From: a virus
Reading direction: 5' to 3' (one strand)
IMG/VR virus record: IMGVR_UViG_3300030693_000028
Location: 1 to 22,332 of that record
DNA length: 22,332 bases
In this document: positions 1-18,078 of the stretch, one piece after another
Layout of the letters: every line of letters starts with the position of its first letter
Position numbering within the stretch: position 1 is the stretch's first letter
Made by a program: the position numbers and the translations under genes
Notes under the pieces: generated by a model
Told to the model about the DNA's origin: nothing
Database searches by the model: none
Seen by the model: only the letters and a program-made list of their open reading frames with translations

Positions 1-166
1 CTGCGAATCCCACCACTGTTTCATCAGCATAGGCCACCCATGCATCTGGAGAATTGTTCAATGACCGAGCCATTGTTTCCTGCTGATCCATAGGTAGCAT
101 GGCTAAGCATTGAGGATAAATCAAGCCGTGTAGACGAGGCCCATCGGTGTGGTAGATTTGAATCAT
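1..166 (-). CDS. Partial N-terminus of a possible acetyltransferase-like virion protein
   Basis: The reading frame opens at an ATG whose first bases overlap the TGA of the nozzle gene (ATGA) and runs off the left edge, so only about 55 residues are visible (MIQIYHTDGPRLHG onward). A GGGG run just before the ATG can serve as a ribosome-binding site. The last visible stretch, DAWVAYADETVVGFA, resembles the first strands of GNAT acetyltransferases, where a sensed 'vAe.dg.vvGf' motif is usual. Acyltransferase-like proteins are known at this position, after the tail tubular genes, in several podoviruses. The assignment is inferred from a short fragment; another internal virion protein is equally possible. 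Confidence 0.5.
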   Translation of the reverse strand, partial: MIQIYHTDGPRLHGLIYPQCLAMLPMDQQETMARSLNNSPDAWVAYADETVVGFA

Positions 167-2970
167 CCCCCGCGCGATCCTTGATCGCCTTGGGTGATGG
201 AAGGGAAGACCCCTAGGATAGTGGCCGGGTATGGGAGGGATTGCTGAATGCAATACTGGCCGGGGACGTTGTAGGTGGGGTCGAGAAAGGTCCGGGCATC
301 ACCGGTGACGAGATCGGATACCACCTGGGAAGCTTGACCGGTGAGCATTGAGGACACATTGCCGACGACAAGGTCCTTCATCGGGACGAGATTGTTGAAG
401 GTCGAACCGATGGAAAGGCCAAGGGTCTCGGTTACTCGGATATCGACGTTGTTGATCTTCTTGACCTTGCCTTGAATTGTGGGCTCGCCAAGGTCTAGGG
501 CAAGGGTCTGGAGTTGAGCGATGAAGCCGAGACCGACGGTGACCTTACTAGCGGCCGTGCCAATAGTGAACTCTCCGTCCGCCGGCATCACAAATGGCGT
601 GATCACCTTGCCATCGGCAAGACCTGTAACAGTCTGCCCAGCGAGGAACTGTGCACCGGAGAACTCGGTGGCAGGTGCTCCGACGTATTGAATGCCGCAA
701 TCCACAGTCCAAGCATCAACAGCACCGCCAGGGTAAGTACGCTCGGCCACTCGCTCAATGTATTGGACAGACTGGCCTTCAATCGTTCGCGCAACCACTG
801 TGTAAATCGCATCGACTTCTCCCGCGGTGGCTGTGCCTTCGGTGACGGTGGCGACCGATTTGAACAAGCCGCCGGGGGTGGAGGAATGGCACCATGCGGT
901 GAACTCCTGCTCTTTGAGGAAAGTGAGGGTGAGCATGACGCCATCGTTGCGTACAGCCCAGACTACCTTGAAGGGTTCCTCAGCCCATGCCCATTCTTGA
1001 ACGGTGAAACCGTAGAAAAGGTGGCTGGAGATAACGGATATATCGGTTCCGGTGAAGACATTGGCGTAGATGTTATAGGCGCTGTCGCGGACGATCGAAC
1101 CTTTGGATTGCATATAGAGCACATCAAAGTTCGACACAATTGGCGGCACATCGCTCGCGCCATTGAAGGATTGGGCGTTAGCAACGAGGGCACTTGGGGA
1201 TACAGCAGTTCCATTCCCACCTCCTGTAATCAACCACGAGGCCTTGTTGGTGAGGATGAGAAGGCCAGTGGTTTGTGAGATCATTGACTTGATGGTGTTA
1301 AGTTGGCCTGAGACAAGAGTCCCTGTGATCGAGTCGGTGGCCTCACTTGGATTGCTGACGTTGAAGTTAAAGTACGACCCCGGCTGCGACATGTAGAAGG
1401 TTTGTGGAGCGCCAGTGGGCGCGGCCAGCACTAGGCGTTGTTGGAAGAATCCCGGGACCGATGGATAGCCATTTGAGCTTGCCGCAAGAGTTGCGGTCGC
1501 AGTGGCGCCAGTTGGAGAGAAGGTCATCGTCGGCACTGAGGTGTAACCAGCGCCAGGGTTGAGTACCTGTACCACCCCAACGCCCCAAGTTAGATTCGCG
1601 GTGGCGCCAGTTCCAGCCCCTGAAGTGGTTAGCTGAGCCACTGGATTGGTTGGGGTCGAACCAGAAGTCACTGCACCATTGACGACTAAGCTCCATGTGG
1701 CTATAGCACTGCCTGAAAGTGTAGCTACTTTGAGGACTACACCGTTAGTAAACGAAACAGTATCACCGATAGCATATCCAGTACCTCCGGAGGCAACAGT
1801 GAAAGTAACCAAAGTCAAAACAGCAGCCAGGGATGCTGCAATGGTACTAGATGCCACTGTAGGAGTTACCGATGGCACCATTGTGTAGGTGCTACCATTG
1901 GTAATGGTGACCGACGCAATCCCCTCACCCTGAAAAGGGTTCTTAGCGATCGGTGGGGTTTGGGAAAAGTCGGGGCCGATATTGGAATCGACAAAAGTAG
2001 TGCCGGTGGTTGTGCCAATGAAACCATAAGTTGAACCCGGCGGAACCACACCGAAATAGCTGACGTCGGATTCGTAGACATTATACGCCACTGCGCTCGG
2101 TGCTGGGTCCCATGTTATTGAGATTGATCCAGCTATACTACGAATGTCATAGGTTGGTCCGATAGTTGCCGGTACGCTCTGGGATGATTCCTGCCCATTG
2201 GCATCGATTGAGGTGATAACGTATGAATAATATGTTGATATTGGGGCTGAGCCGGGTGATGGAAAATTCTCCGCAGTAGCAGCGATACCCGGTGGGGCTG
2301 AGGCTGTGGAGCCTATTACGATTGGAAGCAGAGTCCAATTGGCCGCAGTGATAATGGTAAGGACATAAGGCGTGTAGCTGGGATGACATAGTATTAGTTC
2401 GGAGACGTTCTGAGCGAACTTGACAACGGCAAGATCAGCTGCGGCGTAAGGTGAGACGATGGTGTAAACACGCGAGGCGGCAGCAGGAAGGGTGAAAGGA
2501 TTACTGACGATTACATTACCGAATAGATCAGTTAGAGTAAAGGTATTGGTAGTAATACCTTGCACGATGTAGTAATTACCATCAGCAAATATCCAATCAT
2601 TGTTGGCATAGCCATGATTTGCATCGGTGAAGACTTCTGGCGGGCCTGCGGTTGCTGATGTGATCGAGGTGGCCGTTTCGAGAACCGGTGCACCATCAAC
2701 GATGAATCGAATGTATTGATCGCCGAACTCCAGCACGTAGCCAACGTCGAAGGTCACCTGCATGGGGATCAGGCGGACGGGTGTGGCGGACTTGTAGCAC
2801 TGGAGGATGTACTTGGTGCCAGAGCGGGTACTGGCACCACCACGGTAGTCGACGAAGAAGTTGGAAAGAAGTGCAGCGCCAGAGCGGTACTTAGCGAGGT
2901 CCACGCGGGCGTAGAGGGACGGGGCCCATTCACCGGTGTTGAAGCTGGCTTGAATTGCAAGGTCGCTCAT
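163..2970 (-). CDS. Tail nozzle protein (tail tubular protein B-like)
   Basis: This 935-residue protein would form the distal ring of the short tail, below the adaptor. Its N-terminus (SFNTGEWAPSLYARVDLAKY, then RGGASTRSGTKYI) carries the family signature of a gain of 'GEW.P.l..RvDl.kY' followed by 'GG...RpGT'. The second signature block begins near residue 503 (GFFQQRLVLA) and continues with LTNKASWLI, PIVSNFDVLYMQSKG and RNDGVMLTLTF, ending in QYIERVAERTY. Between them lie a fibronectin-III-like region (about 225-338, with TYYSYVITSIDANGQES and AYNVYESD) and an inserted Gly/Thr-rich beta module (about 350-497, with GGTGY and GAGY turns). The insert is related to one in the adjacent adaptor. 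The gene starts 3 bases after the adaptor stop. The middle of the gene is lower in GC than its ends, which fits inserted modules. Family assignment is secure; the ring role comes from the family. Confidence 0.9.
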   Translation of the reverse strand: MSDLAIQASFNTGEWAPSLYARVDLAKYRSGAALLSNFFVDYRGGASTRSGTKYILQCYKSATPVRLIPMQVTFDVGYVLEFGDQYIRFIVDGAPVLETATSITSATAGPPEVFTDANHGYANNDWIFADGNYYIVQGITTNTFTLTDLFGNVIVSNPFTLPAAASRVYTIVSPYAAADLAVVKFAQNVSELILCHPSYTPYVLTIITAANWTLLPIVIGSTASAPPGIAATAENFPSPGSAPISTYYSYVITSIDANGQESSQSVPATIGPTYDIRSIAGSISITWDPAPSAVAYNVYESDVSYFGVVPPGSTYGFIGTTTGTTFVDSNIGPDFSQTPPIAKNPFQGEGIASVTITNGSTYTMVPSVTPTVASSTIAASLAAVLTLVTFTVASGGTGYAIGDTVSFTNGVVLKVATLSGSAIATWSLVVNGAVTSGSTPTNPVAQLTTSGAGTGATANLTWGVGVVQVLNPGAGYTSVPTMTFSPTGATATATLAASSNGYPSVPGFFQQRLVLAAPTGAPQTFYMSQPGSYFNFNVSNPSEATDSITGTLVSGQLNTIKSMISQTTGLLILTNKASWLITGGGNGTAVSPSALVANAQSFNGASDVPPIVSNFDVLYMQSKGSIVRDSAYNIYANVFTGTDISVISSHLFYGFTVQEWAWAEEPFKVVWAVRNDGVMLTLTFLKEQEFTAWCHSSTPGGLFKSVATVTEGTATAGEVDAIYTVVARTIEGQSVQYIERVAERTYPGGAVDAWTVDCGIQYVGAPATEFSGAQFLAGQTVTGLADGKVITPFVMPADGEFTIGTAASKVTVGLGFIAQLQTLALDLGEPTIQGKVKKINNVDIRVTETLGLSIGSTFNNLVPMKDLVVGNVSSMLTGQASQVVSDLVTGDARTFLDPTYNVPGQYCIQQSLPYPATILGVFPSITQGDQGSRGG

Positions 2971-2973
2971 TGT

Positions 2974-4053
2974 TCACCAAGCCGGGAATGCTTCGCCCCA
3001 GTCAAAGCCGGAGTACGGCCCTGACATGAAGCCTTCGGTGTAGGCGACGCCGCGGATGCGAATCCAATCGGGGGTGACATCGTTGATGGTGAGGCCTTCA
3101 TTGCCGTCGATAGAGCGGGCCTGCTCGATGGAGCGGTTAGCGAGGCCGACGAGATCGTTGGCGCGCTTCTTGTCCCCAGTGAGGGCAACCGAGAGGTGGG
3201 CCCCAAGGATATCCGCCCAAGCCTTTTGGAACAGCGGGTCCATCACGTTGGGATCGGTGACCTGCTTCACGTAGGCGAGGGTGGCGAACTCTTGATTGGT
3301 GAGGATTACTCGTTGGTCGGCCGCTGGGCCGAAGGTCAGGTTGAAGGTGGCGCCGATGCCTGAACCAGTGGTGGTTCCTTGGGCTACCGGGTTGGCTTGG
3401 GCAACGAAGTAGGAGCCACCTGCGGTTCCACCATTGAGGACCGGGACCACACAGACTGCGGATACCACGCCACCGGGGGCTGCTGTGACGAGTAATTGCA
3501 CGGGCGCACCAATTGGTGGATTGGTATTGAGCCCAGCAATGCCTGTGATAATGTCTCCAACATTGTATCCAGTTCCACCATCAACGACGGCAGCGGCTGT
3601 GACGGGAATGAATGTGTCATTCTGAACCTTGTAAACAACCGGCTGCCCCCGCCAGAACGCGGCTGCGCCCCCGGTGACCGCGGTGGTGATCGGGACTCCA
3701 GAGGCATAGCCGGTCTGGTTCGCGGGGATGATCCAACAGGCACGGAGGCAATCGACGGGGTATTGATATTCGTAGGCCCATGGGGGTGGGGGCTGACCCG
3801 GTGACCACAATGGGGTGGCCGCTGAGGTGTTCTCTGGAGTGCCGGGTACCGATGAGATGTAGGTTAGGTTCGCCGTTTTGAGGTGGGAGTCCCATGGCGC
3901 GAGTCGGGCCAAATCATCACGAAGCTGGTTCATGATGATGTTGGCCTGTATTGCCTCATTGGTTGAGTTCGCAGCCAACTCCGCATCGGTCACAGTCGTG
4001 CGGGTGCCGAGGCACTGTAAAGCTCTATTTACTATATCAGTATTTGTGGTCAT
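2974..4053 (-). CDS. Head-to-tail adaptor (tail tubular protein A-like)
   Basis: The 359-residue product matches the adaptor family that joins the portal to the tail nozzle. The N-terminus (TDIVNRALQCLGTRTTVTD) is the usual 'i.NraL..iG....i.d' helix. It is followed by RDDLARLAPWDSHLK and by WAYEYQYPVDCLRACWI, the conserved 'W.Y.Y..P.Dcl' block near residues 92-107. The C-terminal helical part (QEFATLAYVKQVTDPNVMDP, then WADILGAHLSVALTGDK) is also typical. Residues about 150-245 are an insertion with a GGTGYNVGD turn, homologous to an insertion in the nozzle. It starts 3 bases after the preceding stop with a GGGAAG-type ribosome-binding site. At 359 residues it is longer than the T7 gp11 type, largely because of the insert. 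Confidence 0.87.
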   Translation of the reverse strand: MTTNTDIVNRALQCLGTRTTVTDAELAANSTNEAIQANIIMNQLRDDLARLAPWDSHLKTANLTYISSVPGTPENTSAATPLWSPGQPPPPWAYEYQYPVDCLRACWIIPANQTGYASGVPITTAVTGGAAAFWRGQPVVYKVQNDTFIPVTAAAVVDGGTGYNVGDIITGIAGLNTNPPIGAPVQLLVTAAPGGVVSAVCVVPVLNGGTAGGSYFVAQANPVAQGTTTGSGIGATFNLTFGPAADQRVILTNQEFATLAYVKQVTDPNVMDPLFQKAWADILGAHLSVALTGDKKRANDLVGLANRSIEQARSIDGNEGLTINDVTPDWIRIRGVAYTEGFMSGPYSGFDWGEAFPAW

Positions 4054-4547: not shown

Positions 4548-4753
4548 TTCCATTTTCCTTGTGATCCGTGTTCATGGGACGTGCAGGAGCCCATCGGTGC
4601 TTCGAATCCGCGGCCGGAGTAAAGCTGTGGGCCGGAGCCATTGACGTGAACCTGATGGGACCCGATCTCCGACACCGCTGCGGGTGATACCACGTTAGGT
4701 GAGGGATCGGTCTTGCGACCGCCGTTCGAGTTGTTGCCTGAACCTTGTTTCAT
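4544..4753 (-). CDS. Small hypothetical Gly/Ser-rich protein (69 aa)
   Basis: A strong ribosome-binding site (AAAGGAGA, 5 bases before the ATG) and ATGA overlaps at both ends support this as a real gene. The 69-residue product (MKQGSGNNSNGGRKTD...) is polar and low-complexity, with a GRGFEAPMGSC segment and the C-terminus EHGSQGKWK. The ending resembles GTQGKY of the 61-residue protein at 4057-4242, so the two may share a short recognition tail. It is unlikely to be enzymatic. Function unknown. Confidence 0.75.
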   Translation of the reverse strand: MKQGSGNNSNGGRKTDPSPNVVSPAAVSEIGSHQVHVNGSGPQLYSGRGFEAPMGSCTSHEHGSQGKWK

Positions 4754-5151
4754 GTCTTCTCCTTTACTGGCGCTGCCAGTTGCTTGGTGTGGTCGTAACG
4801 GTTGTTGGGGTCCTCAGCCATCTCACGACGGACCTTCGTGAATGCCCCATCATCAGCATGGAGTTCTTGGAGAGCTTGCCGAAATCGATCGTGGCACCGT
4901 TCCATCTCGCGATCGATCCACGGTGGCGGGGTGATACCTAGGGTGACGTACTCGCCCTTGATATGGACGATGTCATGGAAGTAATTGGCAAACCTCCGCA
5001 TCTTCTCGGGGATTTCCTTCTCGGCTTCGCCCATGGCGAAGAGGGCCTTGGAGGTGAGTTCGCGGATAGCCTTGAGTTCTCGAGCGATGCGAAGGAGTAG
5101 ATCTCGGTCGGTCACAGAGTCGTCGAGCTTCGGCTCGGATTCATCAGCCAT
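4750..5151 (-). CDS. Hypothetical helical protein (133 aa)
   Basis: This is a soluble, charged protein with long amphipathic helices (DRDLLLRIARELKAIRELTS, and EKEIPEKMRRFANYFHDIV). A conserved-looking turn, YVTLGITPPPWIDREMERC, is followed by a further helix. Its stop overlaps the start of the next gene (ATGA), and its ATG overlaps by one base the stop of the fibre-like gene upstream (TAATG). There is no signal peptide, unlike that neighbour. I do not recognise the family. The heptad-like helices and the position just after a fibre gene would fit a chaperone or a connector, but that is inference. Confidence 0.75.
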   Translation of the reverse strand: MADESEPKLDDSVTDRDLLLRIARELKAIRELTSKALFAMGEAEKEIPEKMRRFANYFHDIVHIKGEYVTLGITPPPWIDREMERCHDRFRQALQELHADDGAFTKVRREMAEDPNNRYDHTKQLAAPVKEKT

Positions 5152-6521
5152 TAGTTAACAACTCCTCCATTGCTAGACGTACAAGCCGAGGCCCCCGGCA
5201 AGGATGCGGACGTACCTCCGGTGTTTATAACGCCGTTCAAAGTCGCGGTGCATTTAAGGCCAGTAGAAGCGCCAGAGAATGTTGGAACAAAGTCGAAGAA
5301 TATCGTCCCGCCAGTTTGCGCCAAGGCGAACTCATTTCCCCAATTGGGCCCACCAACGACTGTGATTGTGATACCGGCGGCTTCAACGGATATATAGCCG
5401 CCATTGTTGGCGTTCCAATGTACAGGCGTTGAGGCGGAACTAACCGTACCGACTTGGTAATTGCCGATGATGCGTAGGTTGCCGCCAGATACCGCAGTGA
5501 GCGATGTTCCACCACTGGTCCCTTGGGTTATGTTATTTTGCCAATTAACCACGGCGTTGTTGGTGACGACTAGTTGCTGCCCCGCGATGAAGTTGAATTC
5601 CACCCCCTGAAGCTGAGCTTGCACACCATCGAGAGTGAGGGACACCCCCGTGGCCGCTCCAATTGTGATATTCGCCGGAGTGGTGGTATTACCTTGAATG
5701 ATGTCGCAGGCCGGTCCGCACGAGCCGACTTGTGATCCGGTTAGCGTGGTATTGACTGCGTAGTTGCCAGTGGCGATGGAATAGGTGACTACCAAGCCAT
5801 TGTGGTCTAGTATAGTCTGGGCAAACGACCATGCTTTGAGTAAGGTAGCAAAAGCGGTGGTGATACCATTGCCGGTTGTGTCAGAGCCGGTTGTGGCAAT
5901 GAGGAGGGTGGTGTTAGCGCCCAGTTTGGCTCGTCCGGGTGAATTGACAATCCAGTAGTTGGAACCATCAGAGTAGAATTGAAGCGTTTGTCCAGGACCG
6001 ATGTAGGTGAAGCCGTTGAAGAGAAGTCCACCCCCTTTAATCAAACTGCCTGATCCTGTGGCTATGGCTAGAAGACCCGCGGTATCGGAGTTGGTGACTG
6101 ATATGATGGTGTTAGCGGCAAGCACTCCCGGGCTGGTGCCGGGGAGGGTATCGACCATTGGCGATCCGGAGTTGCTCCGATGGACCAGAATGTTATTCTG
6201 CGCCACCGTATAAGTTGTGCTGGCTCCGGTAATGGATGAAGTACTGGTGATTGGAGCTAGGGTAACTACACCGGTCGAGGTATTGATGGTGGCACCCCCG
6301 GATGGGGTGAAACCACCAAGGGCTCCGGAGTTGTTGTATTGAACTTGGCCATTGGTACCACCGGCCGAACCGAGAAGGGAAGCGGGGTTGATTGCCCGAG
6401 GAGTGTTGCTTGCGCCGGTGGCATTGCCACAGACTGTAGCATTCGGGAACACACCGTTGCATTGGGCCATCGCGAGGGATGGGAGGAGGAAGAGCCCGAG
6501 GGCTAAGAGGAGCTTTTTCAT
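5151..6521 (-). CDS. Beta-helix-like fibre/spike protein with Sec signal peptide
   Basis: This 456-residue protein starts with a clear Sec leader: MKK, a Leu-rich core, then S-L-A-M-A before Gln20. After the leader comes CNGVFPNATVCGN and a tail-fibre-type linker, GGTNGQVQYNNSGALGGFT (about residues 54-72), which occurs widely in phage fibres. The C-terminal half opens with IATTGSDTTGNGI and FATLLKAWSFAQ, the usual entry into right-handed beta-helix tail-spike domains. It continues with Thr/Gly/Asn-rich strand repeats. No catalytic residues can be assigned with confidence. The start is 1 base after the upstream stop, with AGGA as ribosome-binding site. A fibre carrying an export signal is odd, because tail fibres normally assemble in the cytoplasm. 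It may be exported or the hydrophobic end may have another use. Confidence 0.8.
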   Translation of the reverse strand: MKKLLLALGLFLLPSLAMAQCNGVFPNATVCGNATGASNTPRAINPASLLGSAGGTNGQVQYNNSGALGGFTPSGGATINTSTGVVTLAPITSTSSITGASTTYTVAQNNILVHRSNSGSPMVDTLPGTSPGVLAANTIISVTNSDTAGLLAIATGSGSLIKGGGLLFNGFTYIGPGQTLQFYSDGSNYWIVNSPGRAKLGANTTLLIATTGSDTTGNGITTAFATLLKAWSFAQTILDHNGLVVTYSIATGNYAVNTTLTGSQVGSCGPACDIIQGNTTTPANITIGAATGVSLTLDGVQAQLQGVEFNFIAGQQLVVTNNAVVNWQNNITQGTSGGTSLTAVSGGNLRIIGNYQVGTVSSASTPVHWNANNGGYISVEAAGITITVVGGPNWGNEFALAQTGGTIFFDFVPTFSGASTGLKCTATLNGVINTGGTSASLPGASACTSSNGGVVN

Positions 6522-6522
6522 G

Positions 6523-6954
6523 TTATTGTCCTAGGGTCCAACCGCCATTAACTAGTTCGGGTTCAAGAAGAATGGTGCCAAAGGGGGTTGCGAGTTGGAC
6601 TTGAGCAAGGTCGGAGATTAGCTCGGAACCAAAAGGGTTCACGTTGATTGTGGTAGCACCACCAGCATCGCCAGATTGGTCCACAATGATCACCGGGTTA
6701 TAAACCCATTGACCGGGGATTGCCTGTGGGCCTTGGGTTGAGGCCTTGGAGGAGGGTAGGTCGATGTTGACGACTCCGGCCGTGACCTTGAGCTTGATCA
6801 AGTTGGTCCACCGCTGGATGGGGTAGGTCCCAGCGGCGGAGATCGTGAGGATAGCGGTCACAGGAACGGTCAGCCAGCCGACAGAGGGACCTTGCCAGAC
6901 ACGGGTATACTGCCTAAAAGTACCACCCTGATCCAAATCCAATTGGCTGGCCAT
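6523..6954 (-). CDS. Hypothetical virion-associated beta protein (143 aa)
   Basis: The product begins ASQLDLDQGGTFRQYTRVW and has alternating strands throughout. A VVNIDLPSS motif sits in the middle, followed by NPVIIVDQSGDAGGATTINV and the terminal GGWTLGQ. I recall similar proteins of this length in podovirus structural operons with no assigned function, where they lie among fibre genes. No signal peptide is present, unlike the genes on both sides of this block. The start is 3 bases after the upstream stop. A small beta-sandwich attached to the tail or capsid is plausible but unproven. Confidence 0.75.
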   Translation of the reverse strand: MASQLDLDQGGTFRQYTRVWQGPSVGWLTVPVTAILTISAAGTYPIQRWTNLIKLKVTAGVVNIDLPSSKASTQGPQAIPGQWVYNPVIIVDQSGDAGGATTINVNPFGSELISDLAQVQLATPFGTILLEPELVNGGWTLGQ

Positions 6955-6957
6955 TGG

Positions 6958-7470
6958 TTAGGCCCTACGTTCGGCGACAGCAGGCTTCGCAGCAGCTTCC
7001 AACGCCAGCACTCGCTTGAGCAAGGCATCGTAGTCCTCTTTGGGCACGGTCTGGTTTGGAGCAGAGGCTGCCCCAGCGAAGGCGAGCATCATCTTCTCCA
7101 TGAATGCCTTCTCAGCGTCGTTCATTCCGCCGTTGGCTGGTAGGGTGTCGATCGGGTGGGCCCATTTGTCTTTGAGGGAATCGGAGATGGCCTCGGCCTC
7201 ATCGTTCATCGGCTCCATATCGAGGGTAGGATCACCGAGGAAGATGAAGTCGCCACGGACGAGACGAGCCCCTTCGATTTCATGAGTCACTACGCAATCG
7301 CCATCACGATTACAGTCCTGCGGATTACGAGGGTCGAGAAGGAGGCCGACCGAGAAGAGCTTTCGCACCGCTTTACCAGTGGTCCGGTCGGATTCGTTAT
7401 GTTCCCATTCGGTGCCGGGGACATTGAGGTAGTGTGAAGTCATAAGCCTCCACCTTGGTGCGTCAACCAT
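6958..7470 (-). CDS. Hypothetical conserved podovirus protein (170 aa)
   Basis: AGGAG, 7 bases before the ATG, fixes the start. The N-terminal part (WRLMTSHYLNVPGTEWEHNE, then DRTTGKAVRK and LLDPRNPQDC) belongs to a family I have seen in podovirus structural regions without a function. The middle holds a basic/acidic beta region (GDFIFLGDPTLDMEPMNDEA). The C-terminus is helical (GGMNDAEKAFMEKMMLAFAG, then EDYDALLKRVLALEAA), which suggests a coiled-coil oligomerisation tail. It has no signal peptide. It follows a 72-base gap, the largest gap in this part of the operon. Confidence 0.75.
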   Translation of the reverse strand: MVDAPRWRLMTSHYLNVPGTEWEHNESDRTTGKAVRKLFSVGLLLDPRNPQDCNRDGDCVVTHEIEGARLVRGDFIFLGDPTLDMEPMNDEAEAISDSLKDKWAHPIDTLPANGGMNDAEKAFMEKMMLAFAGAASAPNQTVPKEDYDALLKRVLALEAAAKPAVAERRA

Positions 7471-7508
7471 ATCAGACTCCTGTGGTTAGATGTTTCCAGA
7501 TTTCTCTA

Positions 7509-7532
7509 CGTTTGATTCTTCCAATCAGAACG
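7509..7532. other. Short intergenic hairpin
   Basis: Within the 72-base gap between two structural genes, a nine-pair stem (CGTTTGATT against AATCA-g-AACG, one bulged base) closes a 5-base loop. Neither flank has a clear T tract, so it is not a convincing terminator. An mRNA processing or stabilising role is possible. Confidence 0.35.
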
Positions 7533-7542
7533 CGCTTGAACA

Positions 7543-8451
7543 TCAGCACTGACCCGTCGTGCATGAGATAATCACGATGCCGGAGCCTCCAATTGCTCCG
7601 GTGCCCGAAGAACCATCAGTACCGCCGCCCCCGCTGCCGGTATTAGCCGCCCCCGCTGTGGGAGATGTCGGCCCGGTGCCATTTCCACCGGTGCCCCCAC
7701 CGCCTGTCCCTCCAGGGTTTGATGTTCCTTGTGTAATAGCGCCGCCACCACCGCCAGCGTAAGTGACTGGGGCTCCGGTAATTGACGATACGAGACCATT
7801 GCCGCCGACGCCGCTCGGCGTGCTTGTAGTCGCATTTCCACCACTCGTACCAGCGCCGCCACCACCGCCACCACCGAAAGGTAATGGAGAGTTGTTACCG
7901 ATGCCGCCGTTAGTTCCTTGGCTAGCGGTTCCGGTTCCGGCCGCGCCGCCATTGCCGCCACCACCGCCAGAACCGCCGCTCTGCCCTGCCGAACCATTAT
8001 TTCCACCGGCGCCACCGCCTATAGCGGTAGCAAGTGAGCCTAAAACTGAGTTGGCGCCGTTGGTCCCGGATGTACCGCCCGCACCAACCGTTATCGCTGT
8101 GGTACCTGATGGAATAGTAACGCTCGACCCCAAGCCGCAAGTCGGCGTTCCCGTTGTGGTGCAAAACCCACCGGCCCCGCCGCCTCCGCCGTTTGCACTG
8201 TTGCCACCACCGCCACCACCTGCAATAACCAGGGCTTGCGCCGTGAAGCTGGACGAGCAGATCAGCGAGCCGCTCGCCGTAAATGTGATGATCGTGTTGC
8301 CGCCTGAGGTGGAGCGCATGCCGCCGGTGCAATCGCTAGGTAGGACCCCACCTGCCTTAGAACCGGCACCGGTTTGGGCGAGTTGGGCAACGACGAGTGT
8401 GGGCCATAGGCAGATGGCGAGGACTAGGGCGAGGGCTTTAGAAAATCGCAT
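7543..8451 (-). CDS. Polyglycine adhesin-like protein with Sec signal peptide
   Basis: This 302-residue protein has a leader (MRFSKALALV..., cleavage predicted after V-V-A before Gln23). A small N-terminal domain with two cysteines follows (DCTGGMRSTSGGNTIITF), then a long glycine-rich region from about residue 78. This contains GGGGGG runs, ITVGAGG, and the closing GGSGIVIIS. The layout matches the glycine-rich domains found in phage receptor-binding proteins, including the T-even gp38 adhesin type whose tip is a polyglycine-II sandwich. The closing 'GG.GiViI' strand is typical of those domains. It overlaps the upstream gene by 14 bases. The opposite strand shows a long Pro-rich open frame only because GGN codons read as NCC. 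Receptor binding is inferred; the leader is unexpected for a virion tip protein. Confidence 0.8.
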   Translation of the reverse strand: MRFSKALALVLAICLWPTLVVAQLAQTGAGSKAGGVLPSDCTGGMRSTSGGNTIITFTASGSLICSSSFTAQALVIAGGGGGGNSANGGGGGAGGFCTTTGTPTCGLGSSVTIPSGTTAITVGAGGTSGTNGANSVLGSLATAIGGGAGGNNGSAGQSGGSGGGGGNGGAAGTGTASQGTNGGIGNNSPLPFGGGGGGGAGTSGGNATTSTPSGVGGNGLVSSITGAPVTYAGGGGGAITQGTSNPGGTGGGGTGGNGTGPTSPTAGAANTGSGGGGTDGSSGTGAIGGSGIVIISCTTGQC

Positions 8452-8842
8452 AGCTCAGGCTTCCGTACATGCCGACCGCGGCGGAGGTTACGGCGCAGAT
8501 GTTGTAGCCAAGGGGTGGGGCCCAGAGGACGCCGTAGCCGTTGCCTTTGGTGAAGCCGACCTGGGCAGTGAGGTTGTAGGCACCGGAGAGGTTGACCGGG
8601 GTGCCGCCGGCGCAGGTCGAGCCGGTACCGGCGATGAATTGGATGTTGCCGGTACCGGCAGCGATTACGTCGACGGCGGTTACGTAGGCGTAACGATTGG
8701 CGACGCCGGTGATGAGTAGGGTGGTTGTGGCAGTGGAGATGGAAATGGGAACGGAAGCGGTGGTGGAAGGGACGAGTTGCTGGGCCAGCGCGGCGCTAGC
8801 TAGCCCGATGTAGAGGAGTAGCGCCGCGATGGCTTTGATCAT
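8438..8842 (-). CDS. Small beta protein with Sec signal peptide (134 aa)
   Basis: The open frame extends further upstream, but the true start is the ATG at 8842. It overlaps the preceding stop as ATGA and begins a clean leader (MIKAIAALLLYIGLASAALA, then QQ). The mature part (NRYAYVTAVDVIAAGTGNIQ, GTGSTCAGGTPVNLSGAY, NICAVTSAAVGMYGSLSYA) matches a beta-sandwich type I have seen in phage structural regions. There a Cys-Gly-containing loop and a C-terminal 'v.v.G.lsY' strand recur. The two cysteines could form a disulfide after export. Function unknown; its neighbours on both sides also carry leaders. Confidence 0.78.
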   Translation of the reverse strand: MIKAIAALLLYIGLASAALAQQLVPSTTASVPISISTATTTLLITGVANRYAYVTAVDVIAAGTGNIQFIAGTGSTCAGGTPVNLSGAYNLTAQVGFTKGNGYGVLWAPPLGYNICAVTSAAVGMYGSLSYAIF

Positions 8843-9294
8843 GATACACTCGTGCAGATGTATGCGATCTTCGAGGATGCATTCGAAGTCTGGGTGATAG
8901 TGAGTGCAGTGGTGGAGGTGGCCCAAGACATCGCGGCCAATGGGCCGGATTGCCAGGAGACTACGCAGTTGGGGGCGGTTTGGAAGGCGGTACCAAAGGT
9001 AACGACGCAAGAGGTGGAGGCTGTGGTGCCGCCGGTGATGACGCCTGAGAGATCAGTGCCAACAAGGGTCGGGGTACCACCGGTGATGCAAGCGGAGAGA
9101 ACTGGCGCCGGGCCGAGCCTGGTGGTGGATAGAAGATGGCCAGGGAGGTACATACCGCCTTGAACGTTGTCAAAGCCGACAAAGCCGGTGGAGTCCTGCG
9201 AAAGTTGAACCCCGCGGTTTGCGGATTGAGCGAGAGCAAAGCCGAGGCCCAGAAGCAGGACCAAGGCTGATGGAAGGAGATATTTGCGCATCAT
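8839..9294 (-). CDS. Secreted-type beta protein with Cys-containing domain (151 aa)
   Basis: The protein begins with a 22-residue leader (MMRKYLLPSALVLLLG..., ending A-L-A before Gln23). The C-terminal half (PVLSACITGGTPTLVGTDLS, STSCVVTFGTAFQTAPNCVV, KIAYICTSVS) is a phage-associated beta domain with four regularly spaced cysteines. It is often seen at the end of fibre-like proteins. Even cysteine number plus a Sec leader fit disulfide formation outside the cytoplasm. AGGA lies 5 bases before the first of two tandem ATGs, and that ATG forms the ATGA overlap with the upstream gene. Role unknown. Confidence 0.78.
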   Translation of the reverse strand: MMRKYLLPSALVLLLGLGFALAQSANRGVQLSQDSTGFVGFDNVQGGMYLPGHLLSTTRLGPAPVLSACITGGTPTLVGTDLSGVITGGTTASTSCVVTFGTAFQTAPNCVVSWQSGPLAAMSWATSTTALTITQTSNASSKIAYICTSVS

Positions 9295-9746
9295 TGTATC
9301 CTAAACCATGTTTTGGAGGAAAGTTGATAGTGGAACACGACCGGAGTCAATGCTGTCAGTGTCTGTGAGGTGTAGGTTGCATGAAGGGTGGCACCGGTGT
9401 TGGCGGTGACGGTTACCATTGAAGTGAGGGTGGTGTCAGTATCGATGGTAACAAGTTCACCAGCAAACGGCGTGAGAGGAAGGGTGATAGCCCAAGTTGT
9501 TGGGGCGGTGCCGATCCAATAGAGGGTGCCACCGAAGGCGGTAGAGGTTGCAGCGCCAGTTTGGCCAGTGGTGCTTTGGAACGCAGTGCCATTGCGAATG
9601 GAGTCGAGGGCATAGTCGTAGCCGGTGCCACCTTCGCCTTCAGCGCCACGGATGACCGTATTGGAGGAGACCTGGGTCTGCACTTGGGCTATTGCTGAAG
9701 CGATGAACCCTAGCAATAGCCCTCCGATGAGGAGAAGCTTTTTCAT
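9291..9746 (-). CDS. Secreted-type fibre-domain protein (151 aa)
   Basis: A leader (MKKLLLIGGLLLGFIASAIA, then Gln21) is followed by VQTQVSSNTVIRGAEGEGG. A beta-rich C-terminus ends VVFHYQLSSKTWFRIQ. The last 70 residues (LVTIDTDTTLTSMVTVTANT, then HATYTSQTLTAL) look like the small beta domain that closes many phage fibres, where a 'G..v.l.Y..s...W' ending is common. It starts 7 bases after the cement gene stop with GAGGG as ribosome-binding site. It is the first of the four consecutive leader-bearing genes that follow the capsid genes. Function unknown. Confidence 0.78.
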   Translation of the reverse strand: MKKLLLIGGLLLGFIASAIAQVQTQVSSNTVIRGAEGEGGTGYDYALDSIRNGTAFQSTTGQTGAATSTAFGGTLYWIGTAPTTWAITLPLTPFAGELVTIDTDTTLTSMVTVTANTGATLHATYTSQTLTALTPVVFHYQLSSKTWFRIQ

Positions 9747-9753
9747 AGTGCCC

Positions 9754-10290
9754 TCAGTTCGCCACGTTGACGCCGGCGGGGTATCCGCCCATGATGGCGT
9801 TGTTGGTGCCGTTGTACATCTGGTCGTCGCGGTCGAGGACGACGTAGGATGAGATAGTTCCGGCGGTCATGGTGGCGCCCGCGACGGTGTAGAGCAGACG
9901 GACATAACGGGGGACCGCGATGCCATCTGGTGGGCGAGGGAAGTCCATGTCGAGAAGGCGGCCGCCCGCGGAGAGGGTGGCTAGGGCATAGGCCGGGGAG
10001 ACCCACCAAGTGGTAAAGGCACCGGGGACGCCTGCGCCGGAGTCAGGGGCGCCTTGGATGGCGACCGAGAGGGTGCCTGCGCCGCCTGAGGTGAAGGTGG
10101 TGCCGACCTGGACTACGAACTTTAGGGCGGGATCATCACCGATACCCATGTCCCGAGCGCCACCACCGTTTGCTGAGGTGGGGATGCCAGAGGTGATGCC
10201 GTAGTCGAGGGTGTTGGCTGAGGGCTGGGTCCCGACTGCGATCGCGAGAGAGGACCCGATGTCGAAGGTTTGATAATTGTCGAGGATCAT
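9754..10290 (-). CDS. Capsid cement protein (Bbp16-like)
   Basis: The frame opens further upstream inside the capsid gene, but the start at 10290 (MILDNYQTFDIGSS) is right: it lies one base after the capsid stop and begins with the family's 'MILD...F' signature. The 178-residue protein matches the Bbp16 family of BPP-1, which stabilises the capsid by binding outside the major capsid lattice. Visible family traits are LDYGITSG, RDMGIGDDPALKFVV, a GAGTLSVAIQGAPDSG strand pair, and PRYVRLLYTVAGATMTAGTI near the C-terminus. Position right after the major capsid gene is the same as in BPP-1. No signal peptide. Confidence 0.87.
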   Translation of the reverse strand: MILDNYQTFDIGSSLAIAVGTQPSANTLDYGITSGIPTSANGGGARDMGIGDDPALKFVVQVGTTFTSGGAGTLSVAIQGAPDSGAGVPGAFTTWWVSPAYALATLSAGGRLLDMDFPRPPDGIAVPRYVRLLYTVAGATMTAGTISSYVVLDRDDQMYNGTNNAIMGGYPAGVNVAN

Positions 10291-10291
10291 G

Positions 10292-11335
10292 TTACACCAC
10301 CTGAAGTTCGTTGTTGAGGATCGCGTCACAAGTGCGGATGGGGATGCCGCGGAAGGTAGTCACAACCTTACCATTAAATTCCTCAAGCCGTAGCAGCACG
10401 TTCGTCTTGTTCATTGCCTGAAGGTCCAAGTAGGTCCGAATGACGCGGTTGGAGTAGATCACCACTCGGCCCTGATTGGCCCGAACTTCGGGAGTGTCAG
10501 AGGTCTGGATGGCGGTGGCTTGAGCGGGGGCAGTGGGGAGGCGGTAGAGCCCGCGGACGATCAGGTTGATGAGGTTGGCTGCGGAGACGCCGGTGAGTTG
10601 GGTGACGTCGATATTGGCGATCCGGGCTTGGTAACGCCAGTCGCGAAGGGTGAGGCCGATCTCCCATTTGAAGTGATCGCGGTAGGCTTGGTAGGTGTTG
10701 CCGTTCGCGTCCTGGACCGGCCACTCACCCATGTCGCGATGCTGGAGCCCGGTGATTTTGCCCTTGGGGAAGATACCATGCATGGTATCGGCGCCCCAAG
10801 TGGTGATCCAGAGCGAGGTGTTGGTATTGGAGGTGCCGCCAGCGTCGAGGACGTTGTTGGCGGTTTGGGAGTTAGCGGTGTTGATGGTGGAGTAGCGCGG
10901 GGCAAGGCCTGTGAAGCGTTCCGGGTTGATGTGCTGGTTGCCGTAGATGTAGGTCGAGGCGACCTGCTGGGACATGCCCTCGAGGAACGCGCGGACTTCG
11001 GAGAGGCGGAACTCAGCGGTGTTGCCGTTGAGGTCGGCGATGTCCTTGTCGATGACCGAGTAGGTTTCGAGGTTGCCGCAGGTGTCGGTGATCTGGGCGG
11101 TGGTGGACTTGGCATTGGGGACACCGGCGTTGAGCAGGCGCCAAGTTGCTTGGGGCAGACCGGTCCGGACGGTGGTCTTGTGTCCGGTCGGGAGGTTGCC
11201 TTCCATGACGATCATGTCGTCAAGGATTTCGTTCGTCTGGGAAAGGAGTTCGATGATGGTCGCGACGCGATAGCCATCATCCATGCGTTTCGCCCAGTCA
11301 CTATAGGTTAGGGCAAGTGAGCCAATTACGGCCAT
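10292..11335 (-). CDS. Major capsid protein (Bbp17-like)
   Basis: The 347-residue product belongs to the BPP-1-type major capsid family, which has an HK97-like fold. Strong family signatures are LTYSDWAKRMDDG, IELLSQTNEILDDMIVMEGN, LPTGHKTTVRTGLPQATWR, STTAQITDTCGNLE, VDKD-type VIDKDIADLNGNTAEFRLSE, ASTYIYGNQHINPERFTGLA, and LTLRDWRYQARIANIDVTQL. The SD AGGAG is 9 bases from the ATG and partly inside a stem. The gene lies after the scaffold and before the cement protein. The 263-residue open frame on the plus strand here is a shadow. Confidence 0.93.
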   Translation of the reverse strand: MAVIGSLALTYSDWAKRMDDGYRVATIIELLSQTNEILDDMIVMEGNLPTGHKTTVRTGLPQATWRLLNAGVPNAKSTTAQITDTCGNLETYSVIDKDIADLNGNTAEFRLSEVRAFLEGMSQQVASTYIYGNQHINPERFTGLAPRYSTINTANSQTANNVLDAGGTSNTNTSLWITTWGADTMHGIFPKGKITGLQHRDMGEWPVQDANGNTYQAYRDHFKWEIGLTLRDWRYQARIANIDVTQLTGVSAANLINLIVRGLYRLPTAPAQATAIQTSDTPEVRANQGRVVIYSNRVIRTYLDLQAMNKTNVLLRLEEFNGKVVTTFRGIPIRTCDAILNNELQVV

Positions 11336-11435: not shown

Positions 11436-12209
11436 TTAGCCGGGGAGATTTGGGAAAAGGGACTTAGCAGCGGTCGGTCGGGACGCTGCGCCGGGAGCGG
11501 TTTGGCCGGCGGGGGATGGGTTGGAGCCGTTAACGTGTTTGCCTTCGGTGATGAGTTGGGAGAGTTTCCAGAAGGCCTTGACGAAAGCGGGGTGGTCTCC
11601 GACGCCGGTGAGGTCCATGGCGGCTTTGAACTCGGCGGCTTCGGCCGGGGGGAGGTGAGTGATGGCTCGGCCAATATCGAGCTTTACAGCGTCGAGGCCG
11701 GTCTTGTCGCCGTTGACGGCCTTTGCGAGTTCGGGGTCGGCAGTGACTTTGGCTCGCCAGTCGGAGCGCATGGTTTCGACGGCGTTGGTCGGGGCCTTGG
11801 CGAGTTCGATCTCACGAGCGGTTTGGAGATCGACCAAGCGTTGGGCTTGATCTTGGGTAAGGCCGAGTTCTTTGAATACTGGGAGGGCAGCTTCGACGGC
11901 CTTCGGGTCGAGGGTGTAGTTCTCGGGAGCCTTGAATGCGGCATAGGTATCGGGGGCCTTGCCGGGTTCGGGGGGCTTGGCTTCGATCGGTTTGCCATCT
12001 TTGTCGAGGGTGGGCTCGATGGGCTTGTCAGTTGACGAGGTTCCACCCTTCGGCGGCTGGGTCTGGAGTGATGGGTCCTTCGGCTGATCCGGCGTCCTGT
12101 CGATAATCTCCCCCGTCGCCGATCGGGCTGCTGCGTCGTTCGGAAGAGGGGTCGTGGTCGGGGTCGGGGAGATCGGGGGCGCTTCGGTCGTTACTGTCGT
12201 GTCGGTCAT
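11436..12209 (-). CDS. Capsid scaffold protein
   Basis: This 257-residue protein sits between portal/Bbp19-like gene and major capsid gene, the usual place for a scaffold. It has the usual traits: a long Pro/Thr-rich disordered N-terminus (about 1-85), a compact region with YAAFKAPENYTLDPKAVEA and LGLTQDQAQRLVDLQTAREI, and helices including DWRAKVTADPELAKAVNG. Towards the end is GDHPAFVKAFWKLSQLITEG and the short C-terminal motif SLFPNLPG. Its start is set by AAGGA 8 bases before the ATG. The first 60 codons overlap the end of the Bbp19-like gene in another frame. The scaffold should leave the head before DNA filling. Confidence 0.88.
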   Translation of the reverse strand: MTDTTVTTEAPPISPTPTTTPLPNDAAARSATGEIIDRTPDQPKDPSLQTQPPKGGTSSTDKPIEPTLDKDGKPIEAKPPEPGKAPDTYAAFKAPENYTLDPKAVEAALPVFKELGLTQDQAQRLVDLQTAREIELAKAPTNAVETMRSDWRAKVTADPELAKAVNGDKTGLDAVKLDIGRAITHLPPAEAAEFKAAMDLTGVGDHPAFVKAFWKLSQLITEGKHVNGSNPSPAGQTAPGAASRPTAAKSLFPNLPG

Positions 12210-12495
12210 TGTTGGCTTCCTTGGTCATCTGGAGGTAGGCATCGGGACAGTGGGCCATGATATCGGAGAGTAAGCGCTGGCCGAAGTTACGCTCACCTTT
12301 AGTGTAGGCTTCGCGGAGTGCGTCGCCGGTGAATGGATCGGTGAAGATATGGGCTTCGGTGAGCTTCCGCCACATCCACGCGCGACCTGGAATGGTGGAC
12401 ATGATGGCGGCTACGGCCTCGCGGTCTTGGAGGACGCGAAGCTTCGAGGACTTCTCGGCTGAGCGGATTTGCTTGCGGTCGGCTGCGTTGTCCAT
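12028..12495 (-). CDS. Bbp19-like protein
   Basis: The 155-residue protein begins one base inside the portal stop (TAATG). Residues about 27-95 match the Bbp19-like phage domain: AAIMSTIPGRAWMWRKLTEA, HIFTDPFTG, YTKGERNFGQRLLSDIMAHC and PDAYLQMTKEANND follow the 'GR..l..ll......y.eG.R..G..l...i....p..y..m..E' pattern. Its function is not established; it is a constant neighbour of portal and scaffold in BPP-1-type phages. The last 60 residues are Asp/Pro/Ser-rich and disordered-looking, and lie in the region that also encodes the N-terminus of the scaffold. Confidence 0.82.
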   Translation of the reverse strand: MDNAADRKQIRSAEKSSKLRVLQDREAVAAIMSTIPGRAWMWRKLTEAHIFTDPFTGDALREAYTKGERNFGQRLLSDIMAHCPDAYLQMTKEANNDRHDSNDRSAPDLPDPDHDPSSERRSSPIGDGGDYRQDAGSAEGPITPDPAAEGWNLVN

Positions 12496-14219
12496 TAGGA
12501 GGCCTGTGACTGTTGGCCCTTGGGCATTAGGCCAGCCCCAGAGAGATTGGCTGCGCCCTTGGAGAGTTGCTCAGCGATCTGCGCCTGCTGCTCTGCCTGC
12601 TTCTGTTGGGCGCGATCTGCACGGATTTGGGCCAAAGCCTCGGGACTCCTAATCATCTTGGGGTCATTGTTCTGGAGTGCAGAGAATTTGTCAAGGGCAT
12701 AATCGGTGTCGATGTTGTCCATGGCGGCAGGGACGACCGCCACGAGTTCGCCGGCGAGTTGGAGCAGGGATTGGATGCCACCGGCCGCGGTTGCGTCTTG
12801 GGCCTGTTTGAGCATGGAGACGTAGTTGATGTTGATCATCTTGCCTTGGATTTCGGGCGGGGAGGGCGGGAGGATGCCAGCACGAGCGGCCATAGCGAAG
12901 ACCCGATCGATGGTTGGGCCGAGGGCTTCGTTGTCGACGCGGTCGATCGCTGGGCCGAGGGCGACGAGGGACTCGGATTTGCGCATGTTCCATTCAACGG
13001 CGGTTACGTTGGAACGGGTTTCGTATTGGGAGGCAGTCATGAGAACGTCGTTGAAGAAGGTCTTGCCGAGGCGGGCTTTGACCTCGTTGAGGTCCTCGGT
13101 GATGGCTTGAACTGGGAACTGGTGGGTGTCGTAGACTGACGCGATACCCGGTTTGCCACTGGTGGTGAAGCCTTGGACGTAGGTCATACCACCGGGGAGG
13201 AGCGAAGCGGGTTGGTTCTTGAGTTGGACATCGGCGACGAGCGGTGGGTTGACCATCTTGTCGATGGCTTGAGCTTTGCGTCGGGTTTCGAGTTGGACTT
13301 GCTTCTGATCCGGGAGGGCGTCCATTGCGGGGGATCGGCCGTAGGCGTCGTTGGAGACGGTGTCCCAGCGATCGATTATGGCGAACTGTTCGAGGTAGCC
13401 CTTTTTGCGGAGGAAGCCACGGCTTTGGACGTTGGAGCCTTGCGGAGCAGCACTTCCACCCCATTCCCAGTAAAGCTCACGGAATGCAAACCTGGCTGGA
13501 AATCCAAACTCTGCAGCGCGGCCATCATCGTTGGGCTCAACTGAATGAGCAACGATGACCTCTCGAGTGAGATTTGCACCACCTGGGTCCTTGTACAATC
13601 GTTGAACTGATTCACTACAATTCTCCAATCCGAACTCAGCGACAAGGCCGCTGACGGTGAGGGTGAACTCGCGGTAGAAGATGGTGGGGCGATACTTGCC
13701 ATCGATGTCAACGTAGTATTCACCGAGGCATGGGTTGATGCAGTTGATAACGTTTTCGAAGTCTTCGTAGATCAGCATGGCGGCGGTGCCGAAGATCACG
13801 AGGTCGAAGTAGAAGACCGCGATGGCGTTGTAGAAGTTGGACTCAGAGAAGATGAGGTAGAGGATGCGTTCGCATTCGGCGAGCCAGAGGGAGACGGGAC
13901 TTGTTTGAGTACTGTCGATGGTGCCGACTCGGAGCTTGAACCATGGGCGGGTAGGTGACGACTTGCCAGAGACGAGACCTGACGCAAGGTTTCGTGCGCA
14001 GATCACGCCGGTGGAATCGAGAATGTGTTGGTTGATGGGCGACCCGCGAGCCATCTGGTTGGGGGTGATTATCCACTTGTACCGCCTAGGTAAGAAGTAA
14101 TCGGCTAGTTCGCGCCAGTGGCACCACCATGAATAGCGATTGACGCGAAGGCCCAGGAGGCGACCTTCGCTGTATTTGAGCGCCGCGAGGTCGGTGGAGG
14201 TGGGGGCGGAGTCACTCAT
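12495..14219 (-). CDS. Portal protein (Head-tail_con type)
   Basis: This is the dodecameric portal of podoviruses, built into one capsid vertex for DNA packaging and tail joining. Matching blocks include SWWCHWRELADYFLPRRYKW, LDSTGVICARNLASGLVSG, SSPTRPWFKL, YFDLVIFGTAAMLIYEDF, DRWDTVSNDAYGRSPAMDAL, NPPLVADVQLKNQPASLLPG, and TASQYETRSNVTAVEW. The C-terminus is Gln/Ala-rich and helical (DRAQQKQAEQQAQIAEQLSK). The frame is open up to 14270. I prefer the ATG at 14219 (MSDSAPTSTDLA) because it overlaps the last codons of the small 14212-14373 gene, giving 574 residues. The 17 residues upstream would lie wholly inside that gene in another frame. Start confidence is moderate; family confidence is high. 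Confidence 0.92.
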   Translation of the reverse strand: MSDSAPTSTDLAALKYSEGRLLGLRVNRYSWWCHWRELADYFLPRRYKWIITPNQMARGSPINQHILDSTGVICARNLASGLVSGKSSPTRPWFKLRVGTIDSTQTSPVSLWLAECERILYLIFSESNFYNAIAVFYFDLVIFGTAAMLIYEDFENVINCINPCLGEYYVDIDGKYRPTIFYREFTLTVSGLVAEFGLENCSESVQRLYKDPGGANLTREVIVAHSVEPNDDGRAAEFGFPARFAFRELYWEWGGSAAPQGSNVQSRGFLRKKGYLEQFAIIDRWDTVSNDAYGRSPAMDALPDQKQVQLETRRKAQAIDKMVNPPLVADVQLKNQPASLLPGGMTYVQGFTTSGKPGIASVYDTHQFPVQAITEDLNEVKARLGKTFFNDVLMTASQYETRSNVTAVEWNMRKSESLVALGPAIDRVDNEALGPTIDRVFAMAARAGILPPSPPEIQGKMININYVSMLKQAQDATAAGGIQSLLQLAGELVAVVPAAMDNIDTDYALDKFSALQNNDPKMIRSPEALAQIRADRAQQKQAEQQAQIAEQLSKGAANLSGAGLMPKGQQSQAS

Positions 14220-14373
14220 TGAGTGGGGACTTTCCAGTGGGTTCGGCTTTGAGGAGTCGGCCTTCGGCATGCATCTGGGCAGCCGCCATTAGGGCAAAGG
14301 GTTCGCTTGGGGGCGGGACTGGAGGGAGTCCTTTGGGGCGGGGGGTGGATGAGGTGAAGGGGACTACGGGCAT
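14212..14373 (-). CDS. Small conserved phage protein between terminase block and portal (53 aa)
   Basis: A 53-residue frame fills the gap before the portal. It starts 8 bases after the upstream stop, with AGG as a modest ribosome-binding site, and its stop lies 5 bases into the portal start region. The N-terminal half is Pro-rich. The C-terminal half, PFALMAAAQMHAEGRLLKAE, is a short helix-like motif I have seen in tiny proteins at this place in other phages. The exact spacing to both neighbours and the motif favour a real gene. Function unknown. Confidence 0.68.
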   Translation of the reverse strand: MPVVPFTSSTPRPKGLPPVPPPSEPFALMAAAQMHAEGRLLKAEPTGKSPLNE

Positions 14374-14612: not shown

Positions 14613-14875
14613 TGTCCTAGGAGACTCTTCTGGCCATAGCCGGTCGCGGGGACTGCAGCTGAACCAACGAAGCTTGGGGTGGAGCCTTGGGAGCCGGAAT
14701 TCTGGGAGCCGATCGGTTGTTGAACGGGTGGAGCAGCTTCGGCGGGGGTGGGTGGAGCGGTGGGGGTGGCGGTGGCGGTTGGGGCAGTGGCAGCACTCGA
14801 TCCAAAAAGGAAGCTCCCGATAGCTTCTAAAGGGCTAACGGAACAGAGGCCATGGGGTTGGTCATGAGGCTTCAT
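14609..14875 (-). CDS. Small Ala/Pro/Thr-rich phage protein (88 aa)
   Basis: An 88-residue low-complexity protein: a short N-terminal helix (SPLEAIGSFLFG), a long Ala-Pro-Thr linker, and a C-terminal block SFVGSAAVPATGYGQKSLLG. The ending '...sFlgsaA.P......qKsLLGq' recurs in small proteins next to terminase or portal genes in several podoviruses, so this seems to be a conserved but uncharacterised partner. It has ATGA overlaps at both ends, with TerL upstream and the 76-residue gene downstream. A short tail peptide that binds the portal or capsid would fit the shape, but that is a guess. Confidence 0.75.
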   Translation of the reverse strand: MKPHDQPHGLCSVSPLEAIGSFLFGSSAATAPTATATPTAPPTPAEAAPPVQQPIGSQNSGSQGSTPSFVGSAAVPATGYGQKSLLGQ

Positions 14876-17721: not shown

Positions 17722-18078
17722 TTAGAACCGTCGGTGCACTGGGGCTGGGGGTGAGCGGAAGAGGTGAGCGATAGGAACTGGGTTCGGCGATTTGAGCTTG
17801 ATGTTATATCGGGGCTTGTAAAGTTCGATCATGGCCTTCTCGATTCGGTCGAGGTCTTCGACGAGGGTCGGGAGAACGTACACTTGGTCGAACAGAACCC
17901 CCCGGAGGGAGGCCGGCATCCACGACGGGGTGGACTTCCGACCCCAGTTCGATCGATGGGCTTCGATCCGTGACAGCGGCTTCTTCGACTGGCCCACATA
18001 CACCACAACCCCATCCCTCAGCAGGGCATACACCGCTGGCTTCAAAATGGGGCTAACCTCAATGAATCCCTCAAGCAC
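17722..18078 (-). CDS. GIY-YIG nuclease domain protein (118 aa)
   Basis: The product is a compact GIY-YIG domain. The two signature strands appear as AVYALLRDG (about 15-23) and VVVYVGQSK (24-32), with YVG in place of YIG. The expected Arg follows at about 37 in SRIEAHR, the Glu at about 80 in DRIEKAMIELY, and the closing KPRYNIK with Asn92. It starts with GTG, 9 bases after AGGAG, and is the first gene behind the late promoter. No extra DNA-binding domain is visible, so a free-standing homing enzyme, a nuclease assisting terminase cutting, or host DNA degradation are all possible. Position beside TerS favours a packaging role but does not prove it. Confidence 0.8.
   Translation of the reverse strand: MLEGFIEVSPILKPAVYALLRDGVVVYVGQSKKPLSRIEAHRSNWGRKSTPSWMPASLRGVLFDQVYVLPTLVEDLDRIEKAMIELYKPRYNIKLKSPNPVPIAHLFRSPPAPVHRRF

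Follow-up and report, generated by a model that had tools for sequence, protein, structure and literature searches.

Tail fibres decide the host range of phages, and their synthesis and attachment are assumed to take place inside the infected cell. Here we describe five genes that begin with a leader for export by the Sec pathway and lie within the virion operon of a soil podovirus contig, a 22.3-kb IMG/VR virus record (IMGVR_UViG_3300030693_000028, positions 1 to 22,332; the whole stretch is referred to below as the window). Overall, the results indicate that these genes probably encode an exported part of the receptor-binding (tail fibre or tail spike) apparatus of the virion. The step of this proposal with the strongest support is export, including cleavage and oxidation, which is very probable judging by the sequences; a final location of the exported proteins on virions is reasonably likely in view of their slot, their domains and the lack of alternatives. 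The leaders and their conservation, paired and covarying cysteines, exchange of Sec for Tat signals, swapping of leaders, fibre-like domains and the operon slot were all read from the sequence.

Five leader genes and their distribution in the clade

The five leader genes, listed here in the order of the operon, are as follows.

9291..9746, minus strand: leader protein 1, 151 aa; leader 9687-9746; mature part of 131 aa, beta-rich, with a predicted XD-type fold (CBA120 TSP4, T4 gp10/gp9)
8839..9294, minus strand: leader protein 2, 151 aa; leader 9229-9294; 4 Cys (two pairs)
8438..8842, minus strand: leader protein 3, 134 aa; leader 8783-8842; mature part modelled as a jelly roll of 8 strands; 2 Cys
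7543..8451, minus strand: leader protein 4, 302 aa; leader 8386-8451; glycine-rich, adhesin-tip-like; 6 Cys
5151..6521, minus strand: leader protein 5, 456 aa; leader 6465-6521; 6 Cys; conserved N terminus and variable C-terminal part, as in tail fibres

An initial annotation of this DNA had placed Sec-leader genes at 5151, 7543, 8438, 8839 and 9291, with Gln directly after the predicted Ala cleavage point in all five and paired cysteines in at least two. We confirmed the coordinates, the leaders and the Gln; each of the five open reading frames (ORFs) has an ATG start, and the mature Cys counts (6, 6, 2, 4 and 0) are all even, with pairs in four of the five. Leaders were called by a rule-based detector, used in place of SignalP, which, among the plausible genes of the window, picked these five alone; its five further hits were GTG/TTG or antisense frames within other genes. 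With a slash marking the predicted cleavage point, and in the order from 5151 to 9291, the leaders are MKKLLLALGLFLLPSLAMA/QC, MRFSKALALVLAICLWPTLVVA/QL, MIKAIAALLLYIGLASAALA/QQ, MMRKYLLPSALVLLLGLGFALA/QS and MKKLLLIGGLLLGFIASAIA/QV. All begin with a positively charged n-region, followed by a hydrophobic core that is free of charges (best 8-residue Kyte-Doolittle mean 2.8-3.3), and end in an A-x-A or V-x-A site, with Gln at +1; a second membrane segment is absent from the five mature parts (best 19-residue mean 1.0-1.4). The five thus have the features of Sec leaders for signal peptidase I, namely an n-region, a hydrophobic core of at least 8 residues, an A-x-A type site and no further membrane segment. 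A lipoprotein (signal peptidase II) reading was rejected because there is no Cys at +1, where all five have Gln; Cys at +2 occurs in the 5151 product only.

The comparison of leaders across related phages, which the initial annotation had proposed, was made on 86 related viral loci gathered by searches with the major capsid protein (MCP) and the 9291 product. The virion strand of these loci yielded 208 leader ORFs with the detector, and the opposite strand about 5. At least one virion-strand leader gene is present in 59 of the 60 contigs of soil podoviruses having at least 2.5 kb after the MCP gene, and the 39 contigs with at least 7 kb after it carry a median of four leader genes and a maximum of eight. 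After clustering, a leader was called in 35/39, 28/32, 25/30, 21/21 and 13/14 members of the leader families and in none of the members of the core virion families (0/100, 0/100, 0/88, 0/77, 0/46, 0/44 and 0/32). The TerL family gave calls in 3/53 members, all in fragments and judged to be start artefacts. Conversely, members of leader families without a call were traced to a wrong start choice or to the strictness or threshold of the detector, as in the 9291 family, where 35/39 members have a leader by rule and the remaining 4 have mis-called starts. The leader cluster is a property of the whole phage clade and not a product of chance. No such cluster was found at the corresponding slot of the more distant Acetobacteraceae, Gastranaerophilales and Agrobacterium relatives. 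The premise of the initial annotation, an absence of leaders from phage virion proteins, is borne out by relatives outside the clade and by the core virion families inside it. In cultured phage records, no match was found for the 9291 and 8839 products or for L078 relatives from two leader families, the 5151 product had one weak match only, and the match of a 540-aa leader fibre was confined to a short internal stretch.

Cysteine pairs, Tat signals and exchange of leaders

We compared the cysteines in mature leader proteins, reduced at 50% identity, with those in core virion proteins. The number of Cys is even in 104 and odd in 12 leader proteins, compared with 17 even and 22 odd in core virion proteins (Fisher p 2e-8), and the density per 100 aa is 1.66 in the former and 0.55 in the latter. 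Every row of alignments A3-A6 (four families, 85 rows) has 0, 2 or 4 Cys. Further, the pair at columns 23 and 51 of A6 is gained or lost jointly, being present in 8 rows and missing from 8; at columns 55 and 82 of A4 (the 8839 family), 15 relatives have both cysteines and 6 have neither; and relatives of the 8438 product acquire a second covarying pair. Structural disulfides usually form outside the cytoplasm, and the paired, covarying cysteines, which show the pattern of disulfides, therefore point to folding there. By comparison with the leader proteins, giant proteins of the ejection type (1584-2105 aa), encoded at L173:6655-12456 and L182:169-4923, lack Cys altogether.

The type of export signal also varies. 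Three members of the QFxxCLPxxC family carry Tat-type leaders (TRRGLLRAAG, TRRKFLTGA and TRRSLLKTAG) and other members use Sec leaders, which suggests that it is export that is kept and not a hydrophobic stretch as such. In the DNSNAC fibre family, the members with a Cys pair bear leaders (some read by eye only, and one truncated by a contig end), and the leaderless members in L137/L259 and L277 are without the pair (p 4e-4, from few independent cases).

The leaders themselves appear to be an exchangeable module. Leader DNA is up to 82% identical in front of mature parts that have no similarity, compared with 60% reached by codon-shuffled leaders, and the best leader-DNA pairs occupy a common gene slot (clusters 15/22 and 7/10). 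In slot 1, the 9291-type family occurs 37 times, an alternative family 32 times, and both together never. From the leader-DNA identity and these mutually exclusive families, it seems that cargo has been swapped behind a resident leader. Gln at +1 was found in 99/130 phage leaders but in 3/19 bacterial leaders under one rule for both (Fisher p 6e-7), the baseline being a small set of 19 leaders from Alphaproteobacteria and an Acidobacteria metagenome-assembled genome, which may not be the hosts. Taken together, the leader sequences support a partly common origin. The initial annotation had left the choice between a common origin and a common export fate; the latter is backed by the paired cysteines and by the Tat/Sec exchange in one family, and the former in part by the identity of leader DNA.

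Fibre-like features, operon slot and competing explanations

The 81 large leader proteins include matches to tail fibre, tail spike and collar PHROGs and to Pfam Collar, Beta_helix, Pect-lyase and SASA, and some leader proteins carry lectin-like or glycine-rich domains. No Pfam C-terminal translocator barrel was found among these 81 proteins, and an autotransporter or self-secreting adhesin was therefore rejected. The 7543 product is the sole one of the five recognised in family searches (Gly_rich_2 PF21722, E 1e-13; phrog_2295, E 5.6e-39). The 5151 family has an invariant start, A/QCNG.F...T.C.N (QCNGVF..C..NGQVQYNN in the window), followed by a divergent remainder, and thus combines the conserved N terminus, divergent C terminus and tail gene region of tail fibres. 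Over residues 33-131, the model of the 9291 product (mean predicted local distance difference test, pLDDT, 84.7) matched CBA120 TSP4 (Z 10.7, 92 residues, root mean square deviation 2.4) and T4 gp10 (Z 9.1), so that, in the model, it shares the XD-type fold of these proteins. The 8438 model (pLDDT 92.3) is a jelly roll with Ena1B as top structural match (Z 9.2, 95 residues, root mean square deviation 3.3) and many middling matches at Z 7-9, including the HFTV1 turret and a phage cement. XepA, an exported protein of PBSX, is also among the best structural matches of mature 8438 (8438-8779), perhaps just through the shared jelly roll.

Leaders were also found on tailspikes outside the clade. In a 1082-aa protein of the P22-like phage L145, a leader stands before the head-binding domain that starts the tailspike in cultured phages. 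The same arrangement occurs in L345, L347, L348, L349 and L351 (two read by eye), compared with 40 leaderless cases. Cys parity does not separate the leader members of this family from the leaderless ones (the latter with 21 even, 12 odd and 7 zero), and this family is therefore evidence for the leader prefix alone, the disulfide argument drawing no support from it. In addition, clusters of 5-7 leader-protein genes lie beside tail or capsid genes at L143:6620-14192 and L147:6755-17347, in phages without the GP7-type MCP of the clade. From these cases, fibre proteins have probably acquired a leader on more than one occasion.

Profile searches identified a podovirus virion operon on the minus strand of the window, where the leader genes lie between the cement and adaptor genes, with two leaderless conserved genes interleaved and a third just downstream.

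14872-16473, minus strand: TerL
12495-14270, minus strand: portal
11436-12209, minus strand: scaffold/protease-like protein
10292..11335, minus strand: MCP, GP7 type, epsilon15/phiV10/BPP-1 lineage (PF20911, E 8.5e-134)
9754..10293, minus strand: Bbp16-like capsid cement, without leader or Cys (PF21190, E 5e-9; phrog_427, E 6.5e-16); upstream edge of the leader cluster
6958..7470, minus strand: conserved leaderless protein among the leader genes (leader in 0/44 relatives)
6523..6954, minus strand: conserved leaderless protein among the leader genes (leader in 0/17 relatives)
4750..5151, minus strand: conserved leaderless protein, downstream edge of the leader cluster
2974..4053, minus strand: tail adaptor/tubular protein, without leader (phrog_394, E 1.7e-29)
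163..2970, minus strand: tail nozzle protein, without leader (phrog_376, E 4.7e-154; Phage_nozzle weak)

The GP7 capsid, Bbp16 cement, portal and nozzle together assign the window to the epsilon15/BPP-1-type podoviruses, and its MCP is 48-56% identical to those of Salmonella 66FD, phiV10 and BPP-1. No leaderless fibre or spike was found in the near-complete relatives G001, G003 and G004 (∼50 kb each, no completeness stated), where the nameable large leaderless proteins are ejection, lysis and replication proteins. Leaderless fibres do occur in L137 and L259 of the same clade, and that of L137 occupies the leader-gene slot.

Three further observations concern neighbouring genes. A GIY-YIG-type endonuclease match lies beside the small terminase of the window (17722-18078, minus strand) and is found in many relatives too. 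Several relatives encode, inside the leader cluster, a membrane protein (L013:12656-13654, plus strand, and its cluster-mates) that weakly resembles O-antigen ligase/polymerase (Wzy_C, E 0.0018); it is possibly involved in receptor modification, which is known from epsilon15 seroconversion. Near the lysis genes of the relative G001 is a second type of leader protein (L173:4878-5576, minus strand; 232 aa, 4 Cys), with a mature start of ADLPPLITKGGG or DLPPLITKGGG and no Pfam or PHROG match.

The initial annotation had proposed that the proteins are decoys, receptor masks or adhesins on the infected cell. Such exported non-virion proteins, in which fibre-derived domains on or from the infected cell serve these purposes or superinfection exclusion, would fit the Cys parity and covariation, and the great diversity and rapid exchange of the leader proteins, some of them lectin-like or glycine-rich, would also suit them. 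However, in 59/60 contigs the leader genes follow the capsid genes within the virion operon, in a slot that leaderless fibres fill in L137, and fibre and spike matches are found among their products; no other fibre was found in the three near-complete relatives; and leaders precede a virion-attachment domain in other phages. Further, lysogenic conversion is unlikely, as eight long relatives showed neither an integrase nor a resolvase. We therefore consider a non-virion role rather unlikely. The second suggestion of the initial annotation, membrane anchors inside the virion, would require signal anchors that stay uncleaved and fix the proteins to the inner membrane or to a part of the virion in contact with a membrane. 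The N-terminal segments are indeed hydrophobic, and their cleavage is a prediction, but most leaders have A-x-A with Gln at +1, Tat leaders substitute for Sec, the cores are short, as is typical of cleaved leaders, and the mature domains are soluble and beta-rich. Anchoring is quite improbable because a conserved A-x-A/Q site and variants with Tat leaders are to be expected of an export signal that is cleaved off.

We give very little credence to the idea that export serves a separate extracellular fibre or coat, such as Ena-like jelly-roll filaments linked by disulfides. Ena1B, a disulfide-linked endospore appendage, is the top match of the 8438 model, but similarities at Z 7-9 are common among jelly rolls and extend to phage turret and cement proteins, the mature 8438 product has no Cys in its N-terminal stretch that could correspond to the Ena N-terminal Cys connector, and other leader proteins are tail-fibre-like. 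Given the family-wide conservation of leaders and their zero rate in core virion families, hydrophobic N termini that arose by chance and have no function are practically negligible as an explanation. The proposal of exported receptor-binding proteins has to be weighed against several points. The 9291 product of the window has no Cys, and disulfides therefore cannot be the sole reason for export; the 5151 product itself has no PHROG or Pfam tail-fibre match; likeness to the XD-type fold, seen in a model, does not prove a location in the virion; and a receptor-binding protein could sit among the proteins of unassigned function. Docking of exported fibres onto tails is a step that we infer from the sequences, and exported tail fibres were not described in the literature searched, which on leaders in tail or virion proteins gave lysis proteins and reviews only.

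Proposed virion completion and known systems

If the five genes encode exported fibre proteins, these would be made late together with the rest of the virion operon, pass through the host Sec translocon and be processed by signal peptidase I after A-x-A, so that the mature proteins would start with Gln, which may then cyclise; disulfides would form in the periplasm where cysteines exist. Heads, portal, adaptor, nozzle and ejection proteins would be assembled in the cytoplasm as usual, and the exported fibres would dock on the tail either at the envelope or once the two compartments mix upon lysis; the gp10/TSP4-like 9291 product is a plausible branching or docking piece. Actual cleavage, oxidation, presence on the virion, and the time and place of docking are what we infer. 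Docking at lysis would be the simplest idea because, by analogy, purified P22 tailspikes bind tailspike-less heads in vitro. More broadly, we lean, if only slightly, towards the view that in several tailed-phage lineages heads and tail tubes are cytoplasmic, fibres exported via Sec or Tat are cleaved and disulfide-bonded in the periplasm, and the virion is completed outside the cytoplasm. If true, this would be a second assembly route for tailed phages and would explain disulfide-stabilised adhesins of soil phages; completing virions after lysis would allow fibre mixing between phages of one burst, and export signals would be a new marker for receptor-binding proteins missed by profile searches.

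Virion proteins with Sec leaders are known from filamentous phages, whose coat proteins are assembled at the membrane; however, these phages are unrelated and extruded without lysis, whereas those described here are tailed phages with cytoplasmic capsids. The lambda morons lom and bor encode exported proteins beside tail genes, but these are single host-surface proteins of a temperate phage, compared with up to eight fibre-like proteins here and no integrase detected. Secreted endolysins (Lys44 of fOg44 and signal-arrest-release endolysins) are phage proteins that use the host Sec pathway (PMC6116005); these are lysis enzymes, not fibres, and form no cluster in a virion operon. The epsilon15/phiV10/BPP-1 podoviruses have the MCP, Bbp16-like cement, portal, adaptor and nozzle in common with the window, and what sets the window apart from the Acetobacteraceae, Gastranaerophilales and Agrobacterium relatives is the leader cluster at its slot. 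Domains of the XD type in T4 gp10/gp9 and CBA120 TSP4 have the fold modelled for residues 33-131 of the 9291 product, which differs in being short, standing alone and carrying a Sec leader. Finally, the head-binding domain LLPxGKQxFxDNxGxPLxGGKxYTY of the Xanthomonas PBR31 tail spike, Rhodoferax P26218 and the Shewanella X14 tailspike is also present in L145, L345, L347, L348, L349 and L351; the proteins of the cultured phages begin directly with this domain, whereas these contigs place a Sec leader before it.

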